Shown: positions 802 through 47,677 of the stretch, piece after piece
How positions within the stretch are numbered: position 1 is the first letter of the stretch
Layout: each line of letters begins with the position of its first letter
Origin: an uncultured Mycoplasmataceae bacterium
GTDB lineage: Bacteria > Bacillota_I > Bacilli_A > Mycoplasmatales > Mycoplasmoidaceae
Length of the DNA stretch: 64,000 nt
Assembly (NCBI GenBank): GCA_947429165.1
Contig: CANEON010000001.1
Location: 1 to 64,000, forward strand
Direction of reading: 5' to 3'
Position numbers and translations under genes: made by a program
Notes under the pieces: model-generated
The model's input: the letters and a program-made list of their open reading frames with translations, nothing else
Database searches by the model: none
What the model was told of the DNA's origin: nothing

Positions 802-1650
802 TTATTTATTACTGTTTAATTTGTCACAATCTGCAAAAGCAGTTTCAGAAATTGAATCAACAGATCCTAAATATTTAACTTTTTCAAGGTTTTTGCAATT
901 AGCAAATGCATAATCATCAATTGTTTTAACTGTAGCTGGAATTTCTATCGATTTAAGTTGTTCACAATTAGCAAATGAATATTTTCCAATTGATGTAACA
1001 GATGGGCGGAAGAAGTCAACGATTTGTAAGTTAGTACATCCATAGAATGCGTAATCAGAAATAGTTTGAATATTAGGAGATAAGCTAACTCTTGTTAATG
1101 CTCTACAATCTTTAAAAGCTTCTTTACCTATTGAAGTAATGCTACTTCATAACAAGTTAATTCAACTTAACTTCAAGCAAGTTTTGAAAGCACGATCACC
1201 AATTGATTCAATTGAACTAGGTAAATAAATTGTTTCAATGTATTGTTGGTAATAAAATGCCCCATCCAAAATTTTTGTTAAACCAAGACAATTAGATAAG
1301 TCAATAGTTTTAATTGTATTAGGTAATATTGGAAGAACGAATCTATAACCTATATCTTTTATGAATGATGGAACAACGATTGTATCATATGCATACAAAT
1401 CTGCTATATCAACACCATCTTTTAACCCACGTCATTCACCATATTCTTCATTAATATTAAAGTATTCATCTGGAACCACTTTAGAACCAGCTGTTTTAGA
1501 TGAAGTTATAACTGGATTTCCAGATTTAATAATAAATGGTTTCTTAGGCTTCTTTGAAGTAGATAAACTTGTAGTTGTTGCACATACTGCACCAACGCAT
1601 CCTAATCCACATGCTAAACTAGTAATTGTTTTAATTATTTTTTTATTCAT
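802..1650 (-). CDS. BspA-like leucine-rich-repeat surface protein
   Basis: 282 residues. The N-terminus (MNKKIIKTI then a hydrophobic stretch to about residue 27) is a signal peptide or anchor. From about residue 80 the protein consists of BspA-type LRR_5 repeats: recurring units such as ITSIGKEAFKDC, ISDYAFYGC, IGKYSFANC and IDDYAFANC, each about 23 residues and ending in Cys. Such repeats occur in surface proteins of mucosal bacteria and in Trichomonas, where they mediate adhesion. TGA codons are read as Trp. The gene has its own promoter region with a long inverted repeat and its own terminator. Function as adhesin is inferred; the LRR fold itself is well supported. Confidence 0.8.
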
Positions 1651-3205: not shown

Positions 3206-3234
3206 TTCAAAAAAAAAAAAAAACAAAGTATAAA
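3206..3234 (+). promoter_or_regulatory. Poly(A)-spaced promoter, A15
   Basis: A run of 15 A (3209-3223) followed by CAAAG and TATAAA (3229-3234). A -35-like TTCAAA (3206-3211) is exactly 17 nt from the -10 box, and most of that spacer is poly(A). Changes in tract length would change -35/-10 spacing. The same geometry recurs at 23362-23390 and 43803-43832. Confidence 0.6.
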
Positions 3235-3261: not shown

Positions 3262-4386
3262 ATGATTAAAAAGACAAGATACATATTATTATCAACTTTT
3301 GCTTGTTCAATTCCTGCAAGTACAGTTGTTTCTTTATCTCATCAAGCTAACGCTTTAGTAAATATTTCTTCTATCTTCTCTAATCCCCAAATTAACAAGT
3401 ACTTAAGCTATAAAACTAAACCAACAGTTGAAGACATCTATGGTTATTTACACCTATATCTAAAGCAAAACAACAAATATACCCAATACAGTACAGTATT
3501 AAACGACATCAATATAACAATTAGTGACAAAATTACCGTCACAGCTAATCCGTCTTCAACAAAATACACAGGATCAATTCAAATAGAATACGGATTAATC
3601 TATTCACCAGTTAACATTTCAAATATTTTCAACACTTTTAGTGTTGGAAACTTATATTATGTTCCAACAGTAAACGAAGTCAAAAAGATGCTTGTGAATT
3701 ATCTAAAAGCTAATTCCAAATCAGAATGATGTAATTTTATTAACTATTTTGACATCACAATAAGTGGTGAAGCTAAAAACTTATATGTTAAGTTAGGAAC
3801 ATCAAAATTACCAATCCCAATGATTACAGGAGAAGCATCTTTTAACTATTTACTCAAGACTCCACCAGAATTCTATTCACATAATGGAAATATGCTAACT
3901 TCATGATCTGATGAAGTTAGAAATAATTGATCAAAATATGACAATTATTCTATTATGGAAATCCCAAAATATATGGACGGGGTTGAAATCACAGAATTTT
4001 GTGGAGAAACATTCTATTGATTTAATGAAAAGAACAAAATTCCAGCTTACCAATTCACTCTTTGTGATTTAGGTAATTTAACAGGATTAACTCATATGCC
4101 TTTTGCCGCATTTGCTAATTTAAGAGGACCTAATACCATTATTTTGCCAAATGCTACTATGACTTTTAATAATTGATCTTTTTCATCATCTGGCGTTAAC
4201 CACATAATAGTTAAAGGTTTAACTGCAGCACCTAAATTTAGTTGTCCTGGTAATGATGCATTTAATGGATCTCCATCAAGCGGTATTATAGAAAGCGATG
4301 GTTCATATTCATCTTCAGATTTATTACAATTCTTTAAAACGAATATGACTCCTACATCGGTATTTGCTAATTGAACGGCCAAGTAG
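3262..4386 (+). CDS. Secreted or surface protein, modular family
   Basis: 374 residues, unknown function. N-terminal signal peptide MIKKTRYILLSTFACSIPAS to about residue 32. The following section contains a module found in other surface proteins of this window: a helix with PTVEDIYGYLHLYL, then a strand pair KITVTANPSSTKYTGSIQIEY. It is most like the gene starting at 26493. The C-terminal part (GLTHMPFAAFANL, NTIILPNATM) faintly resembles BspA-type repeats. Several TGA codons are read as Trp. Expression is from the poly(A)-spaced promoter just upstream. Confidence 0.7.
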
Positions 4387-6566: not shown

Positions 6567-7943
6567 ATGAATAAGAAACTAATTAAATCTATTGGGTTAA
6601 TTTCTTCTGCTATTTGTGGAATTGGAGCAATTTCCACTTCTGTTTCTTCATGTGGTTGACTAAAATTTAAATTAGAGGTGAGTTGTAAATCATCTAATTC
6701 AATTGTTGCTGTTGTAAATGAAACTGGTTCTTTAAATACTAAATATACTTTTGATTGCAATTTTGAACGTTCTGAACTTAATAACATGAAATTCAAGATA
6801 GTTGAAAACTATGAAAATCATTTTAGCATTGATGACCATGGGCAAATTAATTGAAATGCAATTAATCATATTACAAGAGATGTAGTTAATATTGCAGTTG
6901 AAGCTTATATACCCGGTGTTGCTGAATCAAATATTATTCCTTTCTCTGTTACTGTTGTTCCAAAAGCTCCTGAAACTATTGATATTAATTATGCAGGATC
7001 ATATGTATTTAACGATAAAGTAGGCAATCTTGGTGAGAACGAAAATTGTTTAGCTTATAAAATAGGACCTGACGGTGCTGGCAAAAATATCGGAAGATGG
7101 AAACTTGAACAAGTTGAAGGTTCTTTAGATATTACTAATGTAATATCAATAGAAAGCTTAACTGGACAACGTGCTAAAATTTCTTGAAAAAATACTCAAG
7201 TTGGAACTTATAAATTCCGAGCTGTAACTTATGTAAACGGATATGATGTTGAATGCAAGTCAGAAGTTTTTACTTTAAATGTTGATTATCAAAATCCTAC
7301 AGATATTGAAATTAATGATGGGCAAACTAGTTTGTCTGGGGTTGCTGGAATTGATGGTATTAGTTCTACTCCGTTCTCTGCTAAAATTCTTCCAGAAACA
7401 GCAGATCAATCTTCAAAAATTAATTGATCTTTAATTGAAGATAAATATTCTGAATTACCAATTAAAAACGTTTTAAACATTGATGAAAACGGATTAGTTT
7501 CATGAACAAAACCACAATATGGAAAATACTCTTTTTATGCTTGTGCTAATATTGACGGAACTTCAATAATGAAATATTCTGATCTAATTACATTAGATGT
7601 TGAAAAACACAAATCAGAATTTAACGTATCTTTTAATAACGGTAAAACTATTTATGGAGACGAATTACAAGACTTAGAATTATCAAACACAATGTGAGAT
7701 ATAAATTTCCTTGATAATCAAGGTGACTGAAATAAAATATCTCCAGAAAACGTTCAATATGAACTTATTTATAACAGTCCTTTCTTTTCAAGTATTTCTA
7801 TAGATGAATCTGGTAACATATTCTGTCATTATCCTTGCACAGCTTATGCTAATCCATTTATTCAAGTTAGATTAACTTATATAGACCCTACATCAAATGA
7901 ATCTTATTCCCAAGATTGCTATATTTTTTGTGAGATTTTTTAA
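6567..7943 (+). CDS. Lipoprotein with bacterial Ig-like domains
   Basis: 458 residues. The N-terminus MNKKLIKSIGLI...ISTSVSSCG is a lipoprotein signal with lipobox V-S-S-C, so the protein is predicted to be anchored to the outer leaflet through Cys30. The body holds repeated beta-sandwich units of about 90-110 residues ending in patterns such as ISWKNTQVGTYKFRAVTYVNG and VSWTKPQYGKYSFYACANIDG. This G-x-Y-x-F-x-A-x-x-x-x-x-G pattern is typical of bacterial Ig-like or cadherin-like domains. It likely has a surface or adhesion role; ligand unknown. Many TGA Trp codons. Confidence 0.7.
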
Positions 7944-23284: not shown

Positions 23285-23290
23285 AAAAAG

Positions 23291-23316
23291 TCAATGCTAA
23301 ATGCATTGATTTTTTA
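23291..23316 (+). terminator. Terminator of the S10-spc-alpha operon
   Basis: TCAATGC, loop TAAAT, GCATTGA, then a run of T. It lies 6 nt after the rplQ stop. Confidence 0.9.
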
Positions 23317-23361: not shown

Positions 23362-23390
23362 TTGAAAAAAAAAAAAAAACAACATAAAAT
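23362..23390 (+). promoter_or_regulatory. Poly(A)-spaced promoter, A15
   Basis: TTGAAA (23362-23367), then poly(A) (15 A in total, 23365-23379), CAACA and TAAAAT (23385-23390). The -35/-10 spacing is exactly 17 nt. The ATG of the surface protein follows 10 nt after the -10 box, so the leader is very short. Confidence 0.65.
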
Positions 23391-23400
23391 ATATATTAAT

Positions 23401-24975
23401 ATGCAAAAAAGCAAGAAAACTAAAAGGGTCTTAAAAATTTTTGCTTTAACAACTGCTAGTATTTTAATGACTGGTGGTATTTTTAGTTATTCATCTTCTT
23501 GCTCGTGCAGCTCTCGAGTACCTTCAAAAGTTGATTTAGCTTGACTATTTAAAGAAGTTGGTAGTGATCAGTACGGACATGATAGTGCACGTTGATGTAA
23601 CAACGTTGGTCTTGATGGCAAAATCCCAGCAGAAAGAGAAATGAATGATAAATCGTGCTATGGTGGAAAATCTTTCTATGGTGAATCTGGTTATAGAGTA
23701 GATATGCCAAGTAGTGTTTTCTACACAAAAGAAAAAATTATTAGTTACTTACAAGAAGATTTAACTGCTGGTTTTCAAGATAAATATCCAAAATTGGATG
23801 GACAAGTTGATATTGAATTAGATTGTACTTCAAGTGATTCTAAACAACCAGAAGCACTTAACAAATGACATAAAGTTTTGGTTTCTGCAAAAGAAGATGC
23901 TGTTGGTTATTCTGGTTCATTTACTGTTTACTATTATTTAATTAATTCAGAAGCTAGAAATTTAGCAACCGATTTTTCAGAAACAGATATTAAATTTAAA
24001 TACACTATTGATGATGACCAAAACCCAATTAAGGATTTAGAAGTTTTAAATTATTCAAGTTTAAAATCTGCTATTCTTTATTCAAATCCAAATATTATAC
24101 CTGACGCCATTCATTTTCAATATTGTTTAGATAATTCAATTGCTGATACCGATCCAAACAAGTGAGTGGACTGAGAAGAACAATCAGCTCAACCAACTCC
24201 TGGCTCAGATAATCCGGTTTATGATAGCTCAAGAGAGTTCGGTGTAAGATGTTCTGATAGTTCTATTTCTGATATATGTAAAAAATTATGATCTACTCAA
24301 GAAAAGACATATGGAAGTAAAGAAGACAAGATGAGGTTAAGAATAACTCCTAATGAATATCTAGCTACATATCACGATCAGTTACCAATTGAATTCACAA
24401 TCAGTCTATATCGAAATGAAATTAAAAACGATCCTGGTTGGTATGCAAAATGAAATAACACGACACCGCACCAATTCATTGTAACTCCAACAAATGAAAG
24501 CTTAAAATATGCATTCGATGTTGAATATGAAAGTTATCAATTAATTCATTACTTAGATGCTTATCCTAATTCGTGAAAGTGAAATATTAACTCTGAATCA
24601 AAGGTTGCAACATTCTTAATAGATGATACGAATCCATATTATGCAACAAATAATGATTTAGATAAATCGAGTTATCAATTCTCTTATTCAACAGTTCAAA
24701 AAGTAAAATTCTTCGAAAGGTATTTAAAAGGTATAGATTGGGAAAATATATTCTATCAGAAACCAACAGAAGATGAAGTTAAAAGATTTATTGAATGGAG
24801 CGCTATCCAAAAATACGGTGAGAGCGAAAAAATATATTGGAATGAGTTGGAAGTCTCCGTCTCTAAAACAGATGCTCAAATAACAATAAAAAGCCCAAGT
24901 GGTCCATACACCTTAATGTCAACATTACATTATTATGGATTTGAACAAAAAATACAATACAAATTAATAAATTAA
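23401..24975 (+). CDS. Surface lipoprotein A, YxGS/WVDW family
   Basis: 524 residues. A signal sequence with a Ser/Cys-rich end (FSYSSSC) suggests a lipoprotein. Family landmarks: a module with WHKVLVSAKEDAVGYSGSFT and a following YYYL at about residues 158-182, then WVDW after about residue 257, a long middle domain with DTNPYYA, and a C-terminal module ending in a beta-strand (IQYKLIN). It is a paralogue of the gene at 25017-26489 and of the minus-strand gene at 44756-46292. Trp is mostly TGA, but several TGG codons cluster in 24430-24860. First gene of a three-gene operon behind the poly(A)-spaced promoter. Function unknown; probably an antigen or adhesin. Confidence 0.75.
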
Positions 24976-24992
24976 AATAGAAAGGCAAAATT

Positions 24993-25016
24993 ATGAAAAA
25001 CTTAAAAAAATTTTAA
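24993..25016 (+). CDS. Seven-codon leader ORF MKNLKKF
   Basis: ATG 24993 to TAA 25016, preceded by the Shine-Dalgarno AGAAAGG. The stop codon is directly followed by the ATG of surface protein B in the same frame. Either a tiny coupling leader peptide, or a nonsense change that cut an earlier, longer N-terminus. Confidence 0.4.
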   Translation: MKNLKKF

Positions 25017-26489
25017 ATGAAAAAATTAATATTATTCACAGTTACTCCGGTAACATTATTAGCAGTTGGTGGAACAACTACTGCTGTTGTATTAAATAAT
25101 ACAAAACACGTTAATGCTGAAAAAACTGATATCACATCTGTTTTTAGTAAATTATCTACATGAGCGAGCGATGTTACTCAAGGTGCGTCTCCAGCTATGA
25201 CTGCAGAAAACTGTTTAAATGATGAAGTATTCACTGGCGCTGGTATAAGAGAATCAAGCAAAAACTTCGTTTGAGATGCAGACAACTTACTTTACTACTT
25301 ACAAAAACAAGTTAATAACACTGAAGCAATAACTGGTAATCCTGCAATAGTTAATGAATTAGATGTTGTTTTCCAACCAAACTATAACACTGATCAAGCT
25401 AATAACAAATGACAAAAAGTAACTATTAGTGCAAACCAACACAGTGTTAACTATTCGGGCAGTATTAACTTGTATTACTACTTAGACAAAACTGACTATA
25501 AAAGAGATTTATCTGCTGATTTCACAAACACCGAAATTGACATGAGTGCTATGAGTGATTATGCTTCAGTATATGCTCCAACTAACGCGCAAATCTTAAA
25601 CGCAATCAAATCAAAAAATAGTAATTTGAATATTAACTCTGCTCACATCCAATATTGCTTAGACACAACAGCTACAACTCCTAACTGAGTTGATTGAGCA
25701 ACTTTTGATGCAGCAACAGGAAGTTATAAAACAAGTAACACTGCTGGCGTTAACGGAACTGCCGCTGATGAAACTAATTGATTTAGTTTATGAAGTACAG
25801 CCGGACATTACGGACGTACTGCTGCTGAAAAATCAACTCTTAAAGGTGCTTTAAGATTAATTTCAAATTCTCAAGTTTCTTCTTGTTATCCACAAAACTC
25901 AAGTGTTGAATTCTCTATTACTTTTGCTCGTCCATTTATTTATACACAACAAGGTTGAGGTTCAAGTGCTGCATGAGGAATAGATAAAAAACACGAATAT
26001 ATCGTTACTCCTGATGAAGGAAACTTTAAAACAACATTTGTTCAAGCATATGGCGATGGTAATACATATCCTTGATTTACTAAATTAAACAAAGTTCCTG
26101 ATTCTTGATCTTTCACAAGAGTTTCAGATGATTCTAAACTTTATGCAAACTTCCAAATGGATGGAACTAATCCGTATTTTGCTGCCTTTACATCAGAACC
26201 ATCAAAGAAAAATTACTTCTTATATGAAGTAATGTCAAAAATTGATTTTGCTGCTACATATGGTAAATTCTGACCAACTGAAGGCGTAAACTTCTATGCC
26301 AACCCAACTCAAAATGATGTTGTTAGCTATTTAACATATATGGTTGCTAAAGATACTGAGGTAGACCCAATTTATTGAGCTGAAGTAACTATCTCTATTA
26401 ACACATCTGACAAAACAATTACTTTAAGTGTTCCAAACTCTCTTCACTATAACGGTTCTAATTTAACTCTTAAATATACAATCGGATAG
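25017..26489 (+). CDS. Surface protein B, YxGS/WVDW family
   Basis: 490 residues. Signal peptide MKKLILFTVTPVTLLAVGG to about residue 36 (ends HVNAEK), without a Cys lipobox. Same order as protein A: segment KWQKVTISANQHSVNYSGSI followed by YYYL, then NWVDW, a middle domain with DGTNPYFA, and a C-terminal module ending VPNSLHYNGSNLTLKYTIG. Trp residues are almost all TGA. Its ribosome binding site actually serves the leader ORF just upstream, so translation probably depends on re-initiation. Stop is 3 nt before the next gene. Confidence 0.75.
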
Positions 26490-26492
26490 TTA

Positions 26493-28759
26493 ATGAGCAA
26501 ACAAAAGAGGAAGCTAAAAACAATGATTTTTTCTGCTGTTTTATTAAACAGTAGTTTATTGTCTTTAGTTCCTTCTTTTAATTCTCCGCAGAATAAGATT
26601 AATTCTCGTTCTACTAATCTTGAAAATGGAAAAACAAATATTAATTCCATTTTTAATGTTGGTGCAGAAACCGGAATTAAACCAATGATAGGTGTCACCG
26701 AAACATTGACAGACGACGAGATTCACGGACACCTTTATAAATATCTTAAAGAAAAGAATTTATTTAATCAATATCCCACTTTATTAAATGACTTAGTTTA
26801 CATAGTAAACTCTTCTACAAAAAAGATATTAATTAAAGCTCATAGTTCATCGGAAAAATATGAAGGACAGTTTGAATTAAGCTATTCAAATCTTTTTCCT
26901 AAAATCACACTTACCCAATTATTTTCTGGATTACCAAAAATTGAATCATCTTTAACAACTCCATCAAGAAAATCTTTAATTAGTGCTATATCAAATTATT
27001 TTGATAAATCAACTCAATATAACATTTATAAAAATGTTATTTCTTATTTAACTTTTAGTTTTCAAAATAATAAAGTTGAAATTCATTTACAAACAGTAGC
27101 AAAATATTGTGGAATAGTTGATGAAGGATCAGTTCTTCAAATTCCTTATCAAGTTAATACTCCAGCCTCATCTACTGATATCTGTGCAATCATTCCAGTT
27201 AACACTTATTTGAATTGTGCATCTACTGCAAGTAAAACTCCATGATCAACATTACCTACTTATGAAGAGTTTTGTTTAAAGTTAAAAGAACAATTTGGTC
27301 AAAGTTTACAAACTGACGCCCTTCAAATTAATATTGAAGATGCGTTCAATATTTGAGAAACACAATATAGATTAACAATTGTCCCTAGTAAGAATTCTTC
27401 TTACTATACAGGAAGCACTTGTATTATGTTTTATTTAAAAGACACAAGAGTTGCGTTAAATCAAGTAATTAAAGTTGGTCAAGATGTAGCTAATCCAATG
27501 CAAGTGTATAGAACAAAGAATGCTAGTGCTGCTAAATCTGGTGAAAACAAAATCATTAATATTATTGCTGCAGCAAATAATATTGATCCAGGAACATTAA
27601 TAAGCGACGACTTTTCTTTTACATATTCTTCTGGTGCTGGTGGAACTGAAACTATTGGGAATAAATTTACTCTTACAATAACAGTTAATAACAATTCAAG
27701 ATACTACAAAGGGTCTGTAACAATAAATTGTATTTATGTACAACAACCAGCAATTTTTGAAGTTACATGTCAAGAATTATTTGGTAATCAAGGTTCATAC
27801 AATTGATCAACAAACCAATTGTCTACAATCAGTAGCCAAAAATTTGCTTTTGAAAGAATGAATCCATACAATAATCAAGTTGGTATTGCTTATTCAAATG
27901 TTACTATGACCAACACCAACGATCCATACTTAAGCATTGGTTACAAAGTAAAATACCAAAATGTTGAATATGATGTTTGGGGAATTTTAGGTACAAACGA
28001 CATTCAAAAAACAAACTTAGCAACCGCAGAAGAAGATAAAGGTGCGCTTGCATTTGCAACAGCTAGTTTTAGTGGTACTTGTAAACTTTATGGAAAAATT
28101 GGACTCCCTTATACAATTCAATATTTTGGTAAGAATTGCTTTAGAAAACAATCTGGTGTAACTGACTTTATTTGATTAAAAAACCAGGGCAAGTATATGA
28201 TGACAAAGAATTAGATTTCCAATCATCATTCTATTCTGATGCTTTTTATGAATGCTCAGGAGTTAAAAGATGAAGTGTTCCCACTCGTATTCAAGATATT
28301 CCTGCTGAATGAGTTGGTGGAGCAGCAATCTCTATGCCCACATATTTTTTAAGTAGTAAAAAATATTATCCATACGCTAAATCAAATGGTAAGAATATTG
28401 CAAATAACTATCAGTTTGCAACATTATATGTTACTGAAAATTTATTAGAAACATATAAGCAAGATAGCACTTGAAAAGTAAAAGCAACAAATATTTTACC
28501 TATTCCTCATGTTTCGAAAATTATGGCTCCACAAGTGATAGCTACTTCAAACAGTACTGATCAACAAATATTTACAGCTTGAGTTACAACTAGTGCTCAA
28601 CAAGCATCTACAACATATGCTGATTTGTTAGCAAAAATTCAAGATAGTGACTCAATCTATAAATATGTTGTAGATAGAACTAATAAAACAATTACTATCT
28701 ATATAAAAGATAACCACTATTACTACGGAGAATTTACTGCTAACCTTGTATTAAACTAA
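26493..28759 (+). CDS. Surface protein C, interrupted by a -1 frameshift
   Basis: The first frame runs from ATG 26493 to TAG 28214 (573 residues). At 28178-28184 the zero frame reads TTA-AAA-AAC; a -1 shift here continues in an open frame for 191 more residues to TAA 28759, giving about 755 residues. The extra part ends in a beta module (VDRTNKTITIYIKDNHYYYG) of the kind that closes proteins A and B, so both frames belong to one gene. The N-terminus has a signal sequence; modules like TLTDDEIHGHLYKYL and SSSEKYEGQFELSY match the gene at 3262-4386. Last gene of the operon. Whether the shift is programmed, phase-variable or an error is open. Confidence 0.7.
28178..28184 (+). other. Slippery heptamer A-AAA-AAC
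   Basis: AAAAAAC in the correct phase (TTA AAA AAC) for -1 ribosomal frameshifting, at the exact point where the zero frame is about to close and the -1 frame becomes the family-like frame. One extra A would fuse the frames at DNA level. Confidence 0.6.
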
Positions 28760-28789: not shown

Positions 28790-29677
28790 TTAAGCTTTAT
28801 TTTTTAAATCGTAATAGCCTAAGAATACATTAGTATTCTTGGCTTTTTTATTTGGTATATGATAACGTTTAGTTTTTGATTGCATTAAATAATGGAAACA
28901 AATAAAAGAAGACACGACTCCATAACTTATTAATAATGGAATAAATATTATGTAAGGGAACGGAATGCCCTTAAATATAATTCCGATTACATAGTAATCT
29001 CCACCTTCTGCCCAATCCCCTGGTTTCATTCCTGAAACAAAGTGATTAATATCAAACGAATAAGCCATGATGATTACATATAAATAAAATGAAAACGTTG
29101 TTACATTAGTTCATAAGAATGTTTTTCATTTTAATGAAGGGGTATTTAATCAAATACCAACAGCAATAACTAAATTTAAGAAGTGAAGAATAAACATCAT
29201 TCTGTATGGCGGTCTTCCTAAGAAGATAAATTCAGCATTAATGGCTACTAAGTTATCGGCATTAAACACCATTCCAGCATAAGTAAATATCGTTCCGATT
29301 ATTGCTGGTCCGCAAAAGAAAGATGCAATCTTTCTTGATCTATCACATATAAGACTAATGCACATCCCCAAGAAAAAGAATGGGCATAAATCAGTAAGCA
29401 TAGATTTACTTTTAAAGAAATCGTCTCATGGTCCTACATCGATTCCAGGATCACTATAGTATGGTAATATTTCTCCCGTTGATAAATAACGTTGAGCTCC
29501 CATACAATCTCACATTCATCTACCAAACACAAAATAAATAAGACCTAAAATAGAAATTACTAATCAGAATACGTAATAATTTGTGAATTTCTTTATATAT
29601 GGATGAACAAACACTTGCAAACCACATATGGCCGCTACTAAAATAATTAAAACTATTGCAAATGCTGTTAATGACAT
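28790..29677 (-). CDS. Polytopic membrane protein of unknown function
   Basis: 295 residues. About seven hydrophobic segments are visible, starting MSLTAFAIVLIILVAAICGL, with aromatic/charged loops such as GRWMWDCMGAQRYL. It resembles the multi-spanning integral membrane proteins found as single copies in many mycoplasmas (DUF5378-type), but I cannot name it firmly. A TATAAT lies 10-11 nt before the ATG. It is divergently arranged with the sialic acid operon across a 62-bp gap holding an inverted repeat, so joint regulation is possible. TGA codes for at least six Trp. Confidence 0.65.
28816..28849 (+). terminator. Terminator of the surface operon, inside the convergent gene
   Basis: Hairpin of AGCCTAAGAATAC and GTATTCTTGGCT around ATTA, followed by TTTTTTA on the plus strand. 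The stem lies within the last 20 codons of the minus-strand membrane protein gene, so one sequence codes on one strand and terminates on the other. Confidence 0.8.
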
Positions 29678-43802: not shown

Positions 43803-43832
43803 CTCAAAAAAAAAAAAAAAACAAAGTAAAAT
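43803..43832 (+). promoter_or_regulatory. Poly(A)-spaced promoter, A16
   Basis: CTCAAA (43803-43808), poly(A) of 16 (43806-43821), CAAAG, then TAAAAT (43827-43832). The 5-nt gap between tract and -10 box is the same as in the two other copies, but with 16 A the -35-like element is 18 nt away instead of 17. Confidence 0.6.
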
Positions 43833-43841
43833 ATAAGTATT

Positions 43842-44684
43842 ATGAAATCTAGAAATAAAAAAATTTTAATGTGAACTTGTACAATAATTCCTATCATTGC
43901 TGTTAGCTTTGGAGGTATTGTTTATTCTGTTGCGGGTAGTAAAAATAATGATTCATATCCAACACAAATGTATCTTGTTGATGAATTAAATGAAATTAAT
44001 GGAATAGATAATTTTGCTAATTTTGATTTTAGTTTACTCAAAGATAATATAGCTTTTGAACCTTCTCATAAATATTCATCATATGTTGATCCGGATCTTC
44101 CTGATGATCCATCACAAATGTATGATTACCATAATGCAATCACTGCTGATTTTGCTAACCATATTAATGATGGACTACCTAATTTTATAAAAGCTTCATT
44201 CTTGTGTTATTTCATGTGTATTTATATGGGATATGCTTTCAGTACAGAAATAGACCAATCATATAAACTTTTAAACGATACATATGTAAAGGATTTTTCT
44301 TGAAATGTTTATAATTTTTCGACAATAAAATATACTAAACATACTTCTCCAGAATCTTTTGATCAATTTTCGTTTAGTGGTGAATTTGAATTGTATTTTA
44401 AAGCTGCTCCATTTGGGACAAGAATCGATGAAGAAGAAATAGATGTTAAAATTGAAGTTTATGATATACCTTTTTCATTTATGAATTTAGTTAATCTTGG
44501 CTTTGTATTTTTGGGCGTTGGATGTAGTTATGATTTCGAAACAGAAATTTGCCATACAGCAACTTATGTAAATGGCTCTTTACAACAAGAAAACGAAATG
44601 TCAGACTTTTATTTATATTCTTTTCCTGGCACTCCTTGAAATGATATTTTTTCTGACATTGATTTATTATTAATGGAAGATTAA
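43842..44684 (+). CDS. Membrane-anchored or secreted protein D
   Basis: 280 residues, no recognised family. One N-terminal hydrophobic segment (residues 8-32, WTCTIIPIIAVSFGGIVYSV) and an acidic outer part. Two inner segments (FLCYFMCIYMGYAF, FMNLVNLGFVFLGVGC) are hydrophobic enough to insert in a membrane or form a core. Start ATG is 9 nt after the -10 box of the poly(A)-spaced promoter. Trp is TGA. Confidence 0.65.
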
Positions 44685-44755: not shown

Positions 44756-46292
44756 TTATTGAATTAAAGTATAAGTGATTGTTAATGGAGTAGTTGAGTA
44801 GATACCGCTTGTAGTACCAGCGAATATAACTTTTCCAGCCTCAAATGTAATTGTTATATCACTTCAGATGAACTTGCTGTATTCGTCACCCATTACTTGT
44901 TTAGCAACAAGTTTGAAGTTGTCCATAGCGAATGGGTCAACACTTAAGTCAGTGTATAACATACCACTAATGTTTAGATCTTTTAATGTAGTTGTACTTA
45001 AATCAACTTTTTCTCTTGTATCAGTTGTAAATTCATAACCAGCAGATGCAGCATCAGCTTTATTGCTCATTTGTGTGTTGAAGAATGGGTTTCCTGACAA
45101 TTTAAGAATTCATTGTCTCATAGAAGTTTCAGTTGATGAACCATCTTCTAATTCCATTCCTCAAGTGTCAGATCAATCGTAACCATTATTTGCAGTTTGA
45201 TCATCTAACTTATTAACAAATCATTCTCTATCATTGAATAATTCAACAATTCTTGATTCTACTGAAATGTTGTCTGGAATAATATAGAATTTGTTGTTAT
45301 TTCCTGTAGATCAAACAGCTTTGTCTGCTAATCATGTAGAACCATCACTAATTTCTGGTCTATATAATTTAACACTAATATCTTTGTATGTGTTTGCGTT
45401 AGCAGGATCATATGCATTATAGTAGTTACTATTTTCAATAGGAACAATTCTCAAGTGAGCATATGAATCAGCAGTCTTGTCTCATAATTTTAATGATTCA
45501 TCTTGGTTAGTTGAAGCATCTTCAGCATTTGCTTTAACACCAAACTTGTTAGTTGTATTGTTTGTACCTCATGGGTTTGTTGAATCATCTCATTTTCAAT
45601 CAACTCATTTAGATGTACCATCTTCTTTAGTTGATTCGTACATTAATTTGGTTTGACGAGTGTTCAATGCAGTATTATCAGCAGATAATTTTTCTGATAA
45701 TTCAATACCTGTTACTGATTGATATTTGTTAATAACATCATCAGAGAAGTTGATATCAGCTTTTGTAATATCAGGTGCTAAATCTTTTAATTCAGATTGA
45801 GATGTGTAGAACAAGAATTTAAAAGAACCTTCGAATCCACGTGAATGTTTAATTGCACTAACTGTTCATTCATAGAAGTCATTTTCACCAGCAACTGGAG
45901 TGTCTTCTGTAATTTCGATGTTGTTAATGAATTGTTTTTCATTATCTTGTAATTCAGTTTCAAAATTTGCATCGCTCAATAAAAGTGAAATAACTTCATC
46001 AATAGTTGGAGCATTTACAAATTGTTGATCAATATAAAATGCTTTACCTTGGAAACCAGTATCAACTGATGTTTGGCCTTTTAAAACTTTAGAAGCTGAA
46101 ACATAATTTTGTAATTTTGAAGCAATTGTTTCAACGTTAAGTTTTGTTCTTGTGAACAATCCAGCAGCGTATAAACCACCAACTGTTGCACCAGCAGTTC
46201 CGAATAAAAAGAATGGTAAGAAGATAAATAAGGCTTTTCTTTTCTTATTCTTCTTGTCTTCAGAATATGTTTTTTTTGTTTTTTTTAGACAT
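44756..46292 (-). CDS. Surface protein E, YxGS/WVDW family, start codon out of frame
   Basis: About 510 residues. Paralogue of proteins A and B: segment EWTVSAIKHSRGFEGSFKF, then KWVDW, and an end module LTITYTLIQ. A single hydrophobic anchor (KALFIFLPFFLFGTAGATVG) follows a Lys-rich N-terminus. The only ATG with a ribosome binding site (AAGGAGAGAAA, ATG 46292) is in another frame: it is followed by TCT and two A8 runs separated by C, and closes after 15 codons. Removing one A would join ATG and the long frame. In this sequence the gene therefore looks switched off, or depends on slippage. Confidence 0.7.
46268..46287 (-). repeat. A8-C-A8 homopolymer tract at the start of protein E
   Basis: On the coding strand the ATG and TCT codons are followed by A8, C, A8 (T8-G-T8 on the plus strand, 46270-46277 and 46279-46286). 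Such tracts favour polymerase or ribosome slippage and replication slips. Confidence 0.7.
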
Positions 46293-46384: not shown

Positions 46385-47677
46385 TTATTTTTTTCTACCT
46401 TTAACAAGTTTTTTTACTCTATTGTAAATAAAAACCGAACCACACACAAGCATTAATATAGCTAACATTAGAGGAATAATCTTTTGATGTAAAGTAATAT
46501 TTTCTGTATAGCTATCAGCACCATCTGTATCACCAGAATGAATTGTTATATTGAATCTTCCGGTTCAGTCGTTTGATGATATAGTAACGATTTTGTTTAA
46601 ATCAGTAGAATCTTTTAATTGTACAGGATATAAATTTAAGTCATCGATTTCAGTAGCTATTTTATTAAAAATATCTTGGTCGTTTATTAACTCTGAAGGT
46701 CATAAATAGCGAGAATCAAATTCAGAATAAATTAAATCATATAAGAAATAATTACTTGTTGGATCAACTGGCGAAAAGTAGTTGTATTTAATGGTTGTAT
46801 CGTTAACAAAATTAAAAGCTTTAAACTTGTTATTAAAATTATTGTTAACAGCATCCACTGTTGTGTTTACTTCTAATTTGTTATTAGAGAATAACAAAGT
46901 TAAATTAATTGCTGTATTAGAACCAAATTGATCAGCGCCTACATATGATAAGTTATTACTATCTAAAGAAATGGTTAATGTGCTTGATGCTGCTAAACCT
47001 GAACCAATATTATCAAAAGTTGATGCCGGAACAGAAGTTAATGAGTTGTTTTGTAACTCAATATTATTTACAAGAGCATATGAAGGTTTTGGTTCTGTGT
47101 TTGCACTATCAGAACTTAATGAAAGATCATAAAGTCACGGGTTAATGAAAAGAGCAGCTAAAAGTTGTTCAGGTGAGTTATTTAAATCTGAACTAGAAAC
47201 AAGTAACGAAGCAAAATTTAAGGTAGTTATCTTTGATAAACGGTTTTCAGTAATTGATTTACCATCATCTGAAATTACTAAAACAGGTTCATTAATACTT
47301 CCTATTTGCAAAGATTTGATAACACTATTAGCAATTGACTCATTAATAAATAATTGTTTAAATGTAATTGATTGTAATTTTCCGTCATCTAAAGTTTTTC
47401 ATAATTTTGGAAAATATGAACCAATACCTTTAGTAATTGTTGTAGGAAAAAACTCTTTTGCAGAAGAAGAATAATTTGGTGCAAAATATTTTTTTAATAG
47501 TCTAAAATCGTTGTTCTCTAAATCTGGAGCTTTAAGTCCACCACAATATTTATCAACTGAAACATTATTGTTTAAATTTAGTACCGTTCTTTGAGTTTTG
47601 TTGGTAGGTAAATTACACAGAGGAACAATACCTATTGTTCCAAGCGATAATAAAGAAATAATTTTTTTAATTTTCAT
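46385..47677 (-). CDS. Leucine-rich-repeat surface protein F with C-terminal anchor
   Basis: 430 residues. N-terminal signal MKIKKIISLLSLGTIGIVPL with Cys at 21, possibly lipidated. The centre has classical LRR units, for example IELQNNSLTSVPASTFDNI and ISLDSNNLSYVGADQF. A C-terminal membrane helix (IIPLMLAILMLVCGSVFIY) is followed by a basic tail (NRVKKLVKGRKK), so the protein is probably held with the LRR domain outside. Ligand unknown; likely adhesion. A TATAAT box 6 nt upstream suggests a leaderless message. Trp is TGA. Confidence 0.7.

Follow-up and report, generated by a model that had tools for sequence, protein, structure and literature searches.

The first 64,000 nucleotides of contig CANEON010000001.1 of an uncultured Mycoplasmataceae bacterium (GCA_947429165.1; this whole stretch is called the window) encode three homologous proteins, A, B and E, which carry a WVDW motif and are composed of tandem copies of a small domain, here the unit, that is divergently related to spiralin. 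Two further window proteins, that of gene C (opening at 26493) and that of gene 3262, contain units and lack WVDW. Genes of the WVDW family were followed by a gene for a unit protein, termed the partner, in most places where this could be scored. On balance we favor the explanation that the WVDW proteins are anchored spiralin-like stalks which, with exported partners, form an adhesive or antigenic layer switched by poly-A tracts. What is undescribed is the four-unit architecture of A, B and E together with its gene-pair context. Feature coordinates are collected in Table 1.

The WVDW family and its repeated unit

Open reading frames (ORFs) of the window were read with translation table 4, and genes open at the positions given. 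A, B and E aligned from end to end as full-length homologues (BLASTP E values: A-B 5e-43 with 28% identity, A-E 9e-16, B-E 3e-15), and a (V/I)(x)(V/I)SA...YxGS...YYYL block and WVDW were present in all three, with FEGS for YxGS in E. The common plan proposed for them in an earlier note, made from the DNA letters and ORFs, was therefore confirmed, as were the tandem helix + YxGS units without WVDW in the proteins at 3262 and 26493; the region it had delimited, 23401-28759, covered A, B and C and left out E and 3262. In relatives the motif also read WTDW, WTEW, WVDY, WNDW or WEDW, and a few had no motif. The DxxNPYxA region attributed to all three was recognizable in A (DDTNPYYA) and B (DGTNPYFA), but E read SGNPFFN and NP alone was invariant. 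The family is fast-evolving, with 22-35% identity between species. A, B and E were scanned against Pfam and NCBIfam together with seven other sequences of the window, and none of the three had a match. A literature search met with this family in none of the papers it covered. In the Pfam scan LRR_5 had no match in A, B, E or C; a BspA-type leucine-rich repeat (LRR) membership was thus not supported, and A, B and E were rejected as LRR proteins.

The unit alignment (A7) was made from full units of tandem-unit proteins only, without A, B and E. When the whole 710-kb genome was searched with its profile, the first unit in each of A, B and E and the last one in B were picked up independently (E values in Table 1), along with C, 3262 and two further loci; because none of A, B and E had contributed to the profile, their units are not a chance resemblance. 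Profile-profile comparison of the WVDW family with the unit (A5) gave 98% probability (E = 2e-14, score 88.7; maximum 14.7 in 60 column shuffles). By region, the first part of the family matched at E = 1.5e-17, the last at 7e-12 and the second partially at 2e-4, and the third had no match.

In the AlphaFold model of B (8 sequences; mean predicted local distance difference test score, pLDDT, 67; domains 2 and 4 about 80-90) a helix-strand-strand-strand arrangement was predicted four times (residues 88-155, 190-302, 337-404 and 432-489), and WVDW (224-227) was placed in an insert of unit 2, after that unit's first strand. The model of the N-terminal 426 residues of C had the same tandem layout, clearest in units 1 and 3. 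Confidence in the models is moderate (mean pLDDT 67-69). What had been described for A, B and E as a 'middle domain' and a 'closing beta module' is most likely made of additional unit copies that have partly degenerated: the closing module exists, as another helix + YxGS unit (the last-region match above), and the NP region is present, in what the B model predicts to be largely further units and not a separate domain. An unrelated enzyme or binding domain in the NPYxA region was rejected on the same model, in which helix-strand-strand-strand units occupy it. A 736-residue protein elsewhere in the genome (L069:4436-6652, minus strand) has two units at its N-terminus and is repetitive and rich in glycine in its C-terminal half; no WVDW gene adjoins it.

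Relation of the unit to spiralin

C matched the spiralin family PF05215 at E = 4e-5 (24.5 bits, curated cut-off 25), and A, B and E did not match it. The cut-off was exceeded in six other species of the same genus and in species of three other mollicute families (f4, f5 and f9). When the unit profile was compared with an alignment of the PF05215 domains from these genomes, the probability was 90% (E = 1.5e-6, 56 columns) and the score 35.1, against a maximum of 13.1 for shuffled and 8.8 for reversed profiles, with the match spanning helix and strands. In the reverse direction the unit profile found proteins in f4, f5 and f9, and in a bridging tandem-repeat protein (G070, L107) it scored the neighboring repeats as well as the PF05215-matched domain. 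Odd Pfam matches obtained when L107 was translated across stops came from its repetitive frame and were disregarded. On these sequence comparisons we judge the unit to be homologous to the spiralin domain, as a divergent relative. The window proteins are called spiralin-like and not family members because the PF05215 cut-off was tested and not reached.

The earlier note's likening of the unit to spiralin-type repeats was accordingly borne out, and the unit profile recovered units in the window's genome and in other mollicute families; its further suggestion of an undescribed mollicute surface domain was not. It had named a strong match to an existing Pfam family as evidence against that suggestion, and the outcome was divided, with C just below the cut-off and A, B and E matching nothing.

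The cell surface of Spiroplasma citri is covered with spiralin, which has been described as a lectin that the bacterium needs to adhere to insect cells (PMC4804543). Unit and spiralin share a helix followed by strands, a K-D-(I/L)-S/T start, an (I/V)xVxA...S....G strand-turn-strand and tandem use in mollicute surface lipoproteins. They differ in that YxGS replaces the (I/L)xGS-type turn and in the sub-threshold Pfam score in this genome; A, B and E differ from spiralin additionally in their four-domain WVDW architecture, their partner gene and the lack of a lipobox in B and E. A long tandem repeat was seen in another mollicute family (G152:C1:557043-561221), with ten unit-profile matches exactly 441 nt apart.

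Distribution, gene pairing and partner heads

A scan of 99 related genomes detected the WVDW architecture in 12, every one of them a member of the window's genus. All genomes compared were metagenome-assembled genomes (MAGs), and the isolate codes of the related ones are presumably those of termite-gut samples. A wide alignment (A2) was too divergent for the collection scan, and a narrower one (A4) gave five loci. The window's own genome holds a fourth, divergent WVDW copy on contig 2 (E = 3e-18).

For the pair count, each distinct WVDW gene (the last of a run) with at least 600 bases of downstream sequence was used. The next same-strand frame encoded a unit protein in 13 of 16 testable places, opening at -23 to +19 nt: B-C in the window, the contig-2 copy, three loci in G024, and one each in G029, G001, G018, G013, G023, G003, G009 and G020. 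The unit of the G013 partner matched at 2e-7, and the partners in G029, G003 and G009 were frame-broken. The three exceptions were E, its G032 orthologue and a truncated copy in G025. Since unit proteins are a handful of genes per such genome, the pairing is far beyond chance.

Behind their N-terminal units, some partners carried recognizable heads: LRR_5 in G018 (4e-12) and G009 (2e-8), and, at the protein end, an ALK/LTK glycine-rich domain (PF12810) in G024 (3e-42; L034:6480-8066) and G023 (6e-35; L072:7619-9220). The other heads had no clear Pfam match; C itself had no significant head match, and its orthologue in L031 had a weak LRR_5 match (0.009). BspA-type LRR and ALK/LTK glycine-rich surface proteins have the same domains; what differs here is that spiralin-like units precede them and that a WVDW protein is encoded alongside.

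Frame breaks and poly-A tracts

Gene C is split into the ORFs 26493-28214 and 28172-28759 by a one-base shift at an A6 run: the frame of the second ORF continues the protein, and the L031 orthologue of C is a single intact frame of 731 residues. A separate gene at 28172-28759 was rejected on the same ground. E had no usable in-frame start, an A8 run (46279-46286) following its ATG. Its G032 relative has A7 and an open frame at this point. Several genomes have unit or WVDW genes broken close to a homopolymer run or within one; besides the sites in C and E (28178-28183 and 46270-46286), such breaks were located at L070:5560-5900 and L073:6560-6760 (both on the minus strand).

The window contained three A/T runs of at least 12, all on the plus strand, 20-40 nt 5' of genes for surface or secreted proteins (3262, A and 43842) and each followed by CAANNTAWAA. 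In a search of the whole genome for a tract with this motif, these three were the only sites, and the reversed control pattern occurred nowhere. One other A tract of at least 11 preceded a 388-residue frame with a signal-like, Cys-containing start. Tracts before A orthologues were A16 in G029 and A17 in G032, the latter at a suspect contig end. In front of the A-B-C operon, the A15 tract makes up most of the spacer between predicted -35 and -10 elements; at 3262 and 43842 the same promoter layout was predicted downstream of the tract. Promoter-like sites in the region were no more numerous than expected by chance, and the site at 23362-23390 counts for its place only. The 280-residue product of gene 43842-44684 has a hydrophobic segment at its N-terminus and matched nothing in Pfam or NCBIfam.

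In Mycoplasma hyorhinis, the Vlp lipoproteins are switched by insertions and deletions in a promoter poly-A tract (PMC10502178, section 5.1.1). Like the Vlp genes, A-B-C, 3262 and 43842 carry a homopolymeric A tract in their promoter region; unlike Vlp, there are only three such tracts in this genome, the length differences seen here are between species, and no sequence kinship is claimed. By this analogy, the placement of the tracts suggests Vlp-type phase variation of surface genes.

Predicted membrane anchoring

A single N-terminal segment, basic plus hydrophobic, marks the WVDW proteins and the majority of partners, with a score below threshold in a few. Protein A shows a lipobox-like SSSC and its orthologues LSSC and VSSC, and neither B nor E has such a site; LspA is present in the genome. 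The modular surface protein family proposed in the earlier note was supported. Signal peptidase I (PF10502) was not found in the genome (92% complete) by a search that was positive in 14 of 14 control genomes, and the N-terminal segments may for this reason be retained as anchors. In many WVDW proteins the segment is glycine-rich (GGxTVGG), which could favor helix pairing.

Interpretation and alternatives

From the computed results (family homology, unit-spiralin relatedness, gene pairing and tract positions) we infer surface exposure, physical partnership, adhesion and switching, each at the strength given here. In the explanation favored above, A, B and E would be held at the membrane by an N-terminal signal anchor or lipid, each with four tandem, partly degenerate alpha-beta-beta-beta domains related to spiralin and the WVDW insert in the second. 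The exported partner encoded downstream, normally together with the WVDW protein, would carry the same domains N-terminally and an exchangeable head; stalks and partners would present these heads on the wall-less cell in a layer with an adhesive or antigenic role, and slippage in the poly-A tracts would turn the genes on and off. An adhesin function would be carried over by analogy from S. citri spiralin. Several observations weigh against this explanation. Both C and E are frame-broken here, so the two proteins may go unproduced; E lacks a partner gene; PF05215 reached its cut-off nowhere in this genome (19.3 bits at best in the genome search); and the third unit of A, B and E comes from the predicted model alone. 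The WVDW family is absent from most relatives of the genus and is therefore not a core function.

The strongest competitor, to which we give a substantial minority chance, is that the frame breaks and A tracts reflect decay or assembly error, C and E being pseudogenes and the tracts incidental. The G032 copy of E fits this, having the frame-restoring A7 but a point stop further on, as does the G029 relative of C, which breaks elsewhere, at a T7 run; that all genomes are MAGs also favors it. Against it, rpoB, rpoC and other housekeeping genes of the window are intact, and the three longest A tracts all lie 5' of surface or secreted protein genes with one common motif that the reversed control did not reproduce. 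Convergence of an unrelated unit on a similar strand-turn-strand pattern would explain why single units matched PF05215 too weakly in the Pfam scan and why the WVDW profile alone reached 15% probability with the spiralin profile, but it is improbable in view of the shuffled and reversed controls over helix and strands and of the PF05215 domain of another family that the unit profile scores.

Two readings concern what the proteins do. A phase-switched two-component adhesion system of one gut-mollicute genus, in which the anchored WVDW protein docks or assembles the exported head protein and heads are swapped between species while the pair is kept, is a tentative idea that we doubt in this full form. 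The tight gene order kept across divergent species despite differing heads, and the same N-terminal unit in both members, speak for it; partners also have an N-terminal hydrophobic segment and, with signal peptidase I not found, may be self-anchored, and besides the partnerless E the unit proteins at 3262 and C1:140-kb stand without a WVDW gene. Slightly less plausible still is a passive coat, a structural or immune-decoy layer resembling an S-layer and without specific adhesion: small repeated domains, genus restriction, fast evolution and candidate switch sites would suit it, but it would leave no use for exchangeable heads whose folds (LRR_5, ALK/LTK glycine-rich) are known binding types. 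We regard A, B and E as a genus-restricted new architecture and gene pair within ordinary mollicute surface biology and not a new kind of system.

For gut mollicutes that have not been cultured, a set of surface proteins with no other annotation is now connected to the spiralin domain, most of our knowledge of which comes from Spiroplasma and its relatives. The analysis also supplies a usable unit profile and a gene pair that recurs with exchangeable heads; one type of head is a glycine-rich domain that takes its name from the ALK/LTK receptors of animals. Should the poly-A tracts switch these genes, phase variation in never-cultured bacteria could be tested in metagenome reads that already exist; whether WVDW proteins physically hold their partners is the more interesting question.

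Structure searches

The unit profile matched no solved structure among PDB sequences; matches to a Top7 mutant, PerR and a nanobody (E = 0.02-0.1) were not credible. With Foldseek the best E values were 0.026 for B and 4.6e-4 for C (InlK). With VIA-align Z was about 5 at best, and Rib, SRR 'Unique' and Sap S-layer domains recurred at Z 2.7-4.5 with these moderate-confidence models. Neither tool gave a match that rose clearly over background. Such scores measure common arrangements and were not used as evidence of kinship, and a family missing from them proves nothing. The rows for Rib, SRR 'Unique', InlK, Sap, FERM and cadherin were weak and tied, and none is claimed as a fold name. The Gram-positive surface proteins Rib, SRR 'Unique', InlK and Sap resemble A, B, E and C in recurrent weak fold matches and repeated stalk-domain use, and differ in that Z stays at 2.7-4.5 with no PDB sequence match.

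Window features

Table 1. Positions in the window of the genes, units, motifs and candidate signals discussed.
Feature	Position	Strand	Basis
A15 tract with CAANNTAWAA, upstream of gene 3262	3209..3223	+	
3262 unit protein, 374 aa, two N-terminal units, no WVDW	3262..4386	+	
Unit 1 of 3262 protein	3358..3597	+	unit profile, E 9e-25
Terminator-like hairpin, parts upstream ribosomal-protein operon from A-B-C	23285..23315	+	consensus scan only
Promoter-like TTGAAA-17-TAAAAT, spacer mostly poly-A	23362..23390	+	joint best score of region, 10 of 12
A15 tract, then CAANNTAWAA; candidate slippage switch of A-B-C	23365..23379	+	
Protein A, WVDW family, 524 aa, lipobox-like SSSC	23401..24975	+	homology, motif
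First spiralin-like unit of A	23710..23940	+	unit profile, E 3e-6
WVDW motif of A	24163..24174	+	sequence
Protein B, WVDW family, 490 aa; hydrophobic segment at N-terminus; model has four helix-strand-strand-strand units	25017..26489	+	
First spiralin-like unit of B	25281..25484	+	unit profile, E 9e-8
WVDW motif of B, in insert of unit 2	25686..25697	+	sequence and model
Last spiralin-like unit of B ('closing beta module')	26238..26480	+	unit profile, E 1e-4
Gene C, partner protein, four N-terminal units, split into two ORFs	26493..28759	+	
Unit 1 of C	26631..26891	+	unit profile, E 1e-23
Unit 3 of C	27204..27437	+	unit profile, E 2.5e-6
Unit 4 of C, genome's best PF05215 match	27516..27728	+	Pfam
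A6 run, frame-break point of C	28178..28183	+	
Terminator-like hairpin after A-B-C	28819..28842	+	
A16 promoter-like tract with CAANNTAWAA, upstream of gene 43842	43806-43821	+	
Protein E, WVDW family, frame-broken after ATG, no unit gene downstream	44756..46292	-	homology
WVDW motif of E	45596..45607	-	sequence
First spiralin-like unit of E	45809..46024	-	unit profile, E 1e-6

E is adjoined by a gene for a 430-residue protein (46385-47677, minus strand) with an N-terminal signal and a C-terminal hydrophobic segment, and the same neighborhood is kept in L035. The window also encodes a BspA-type LRR_5 surface protein at 802-1650 (minus strand, E = 2.4e-41) and, at 6567-7943, a 458-residue protein with a lipobox-like VSSC and weak Ig/prealbumin-like matches.

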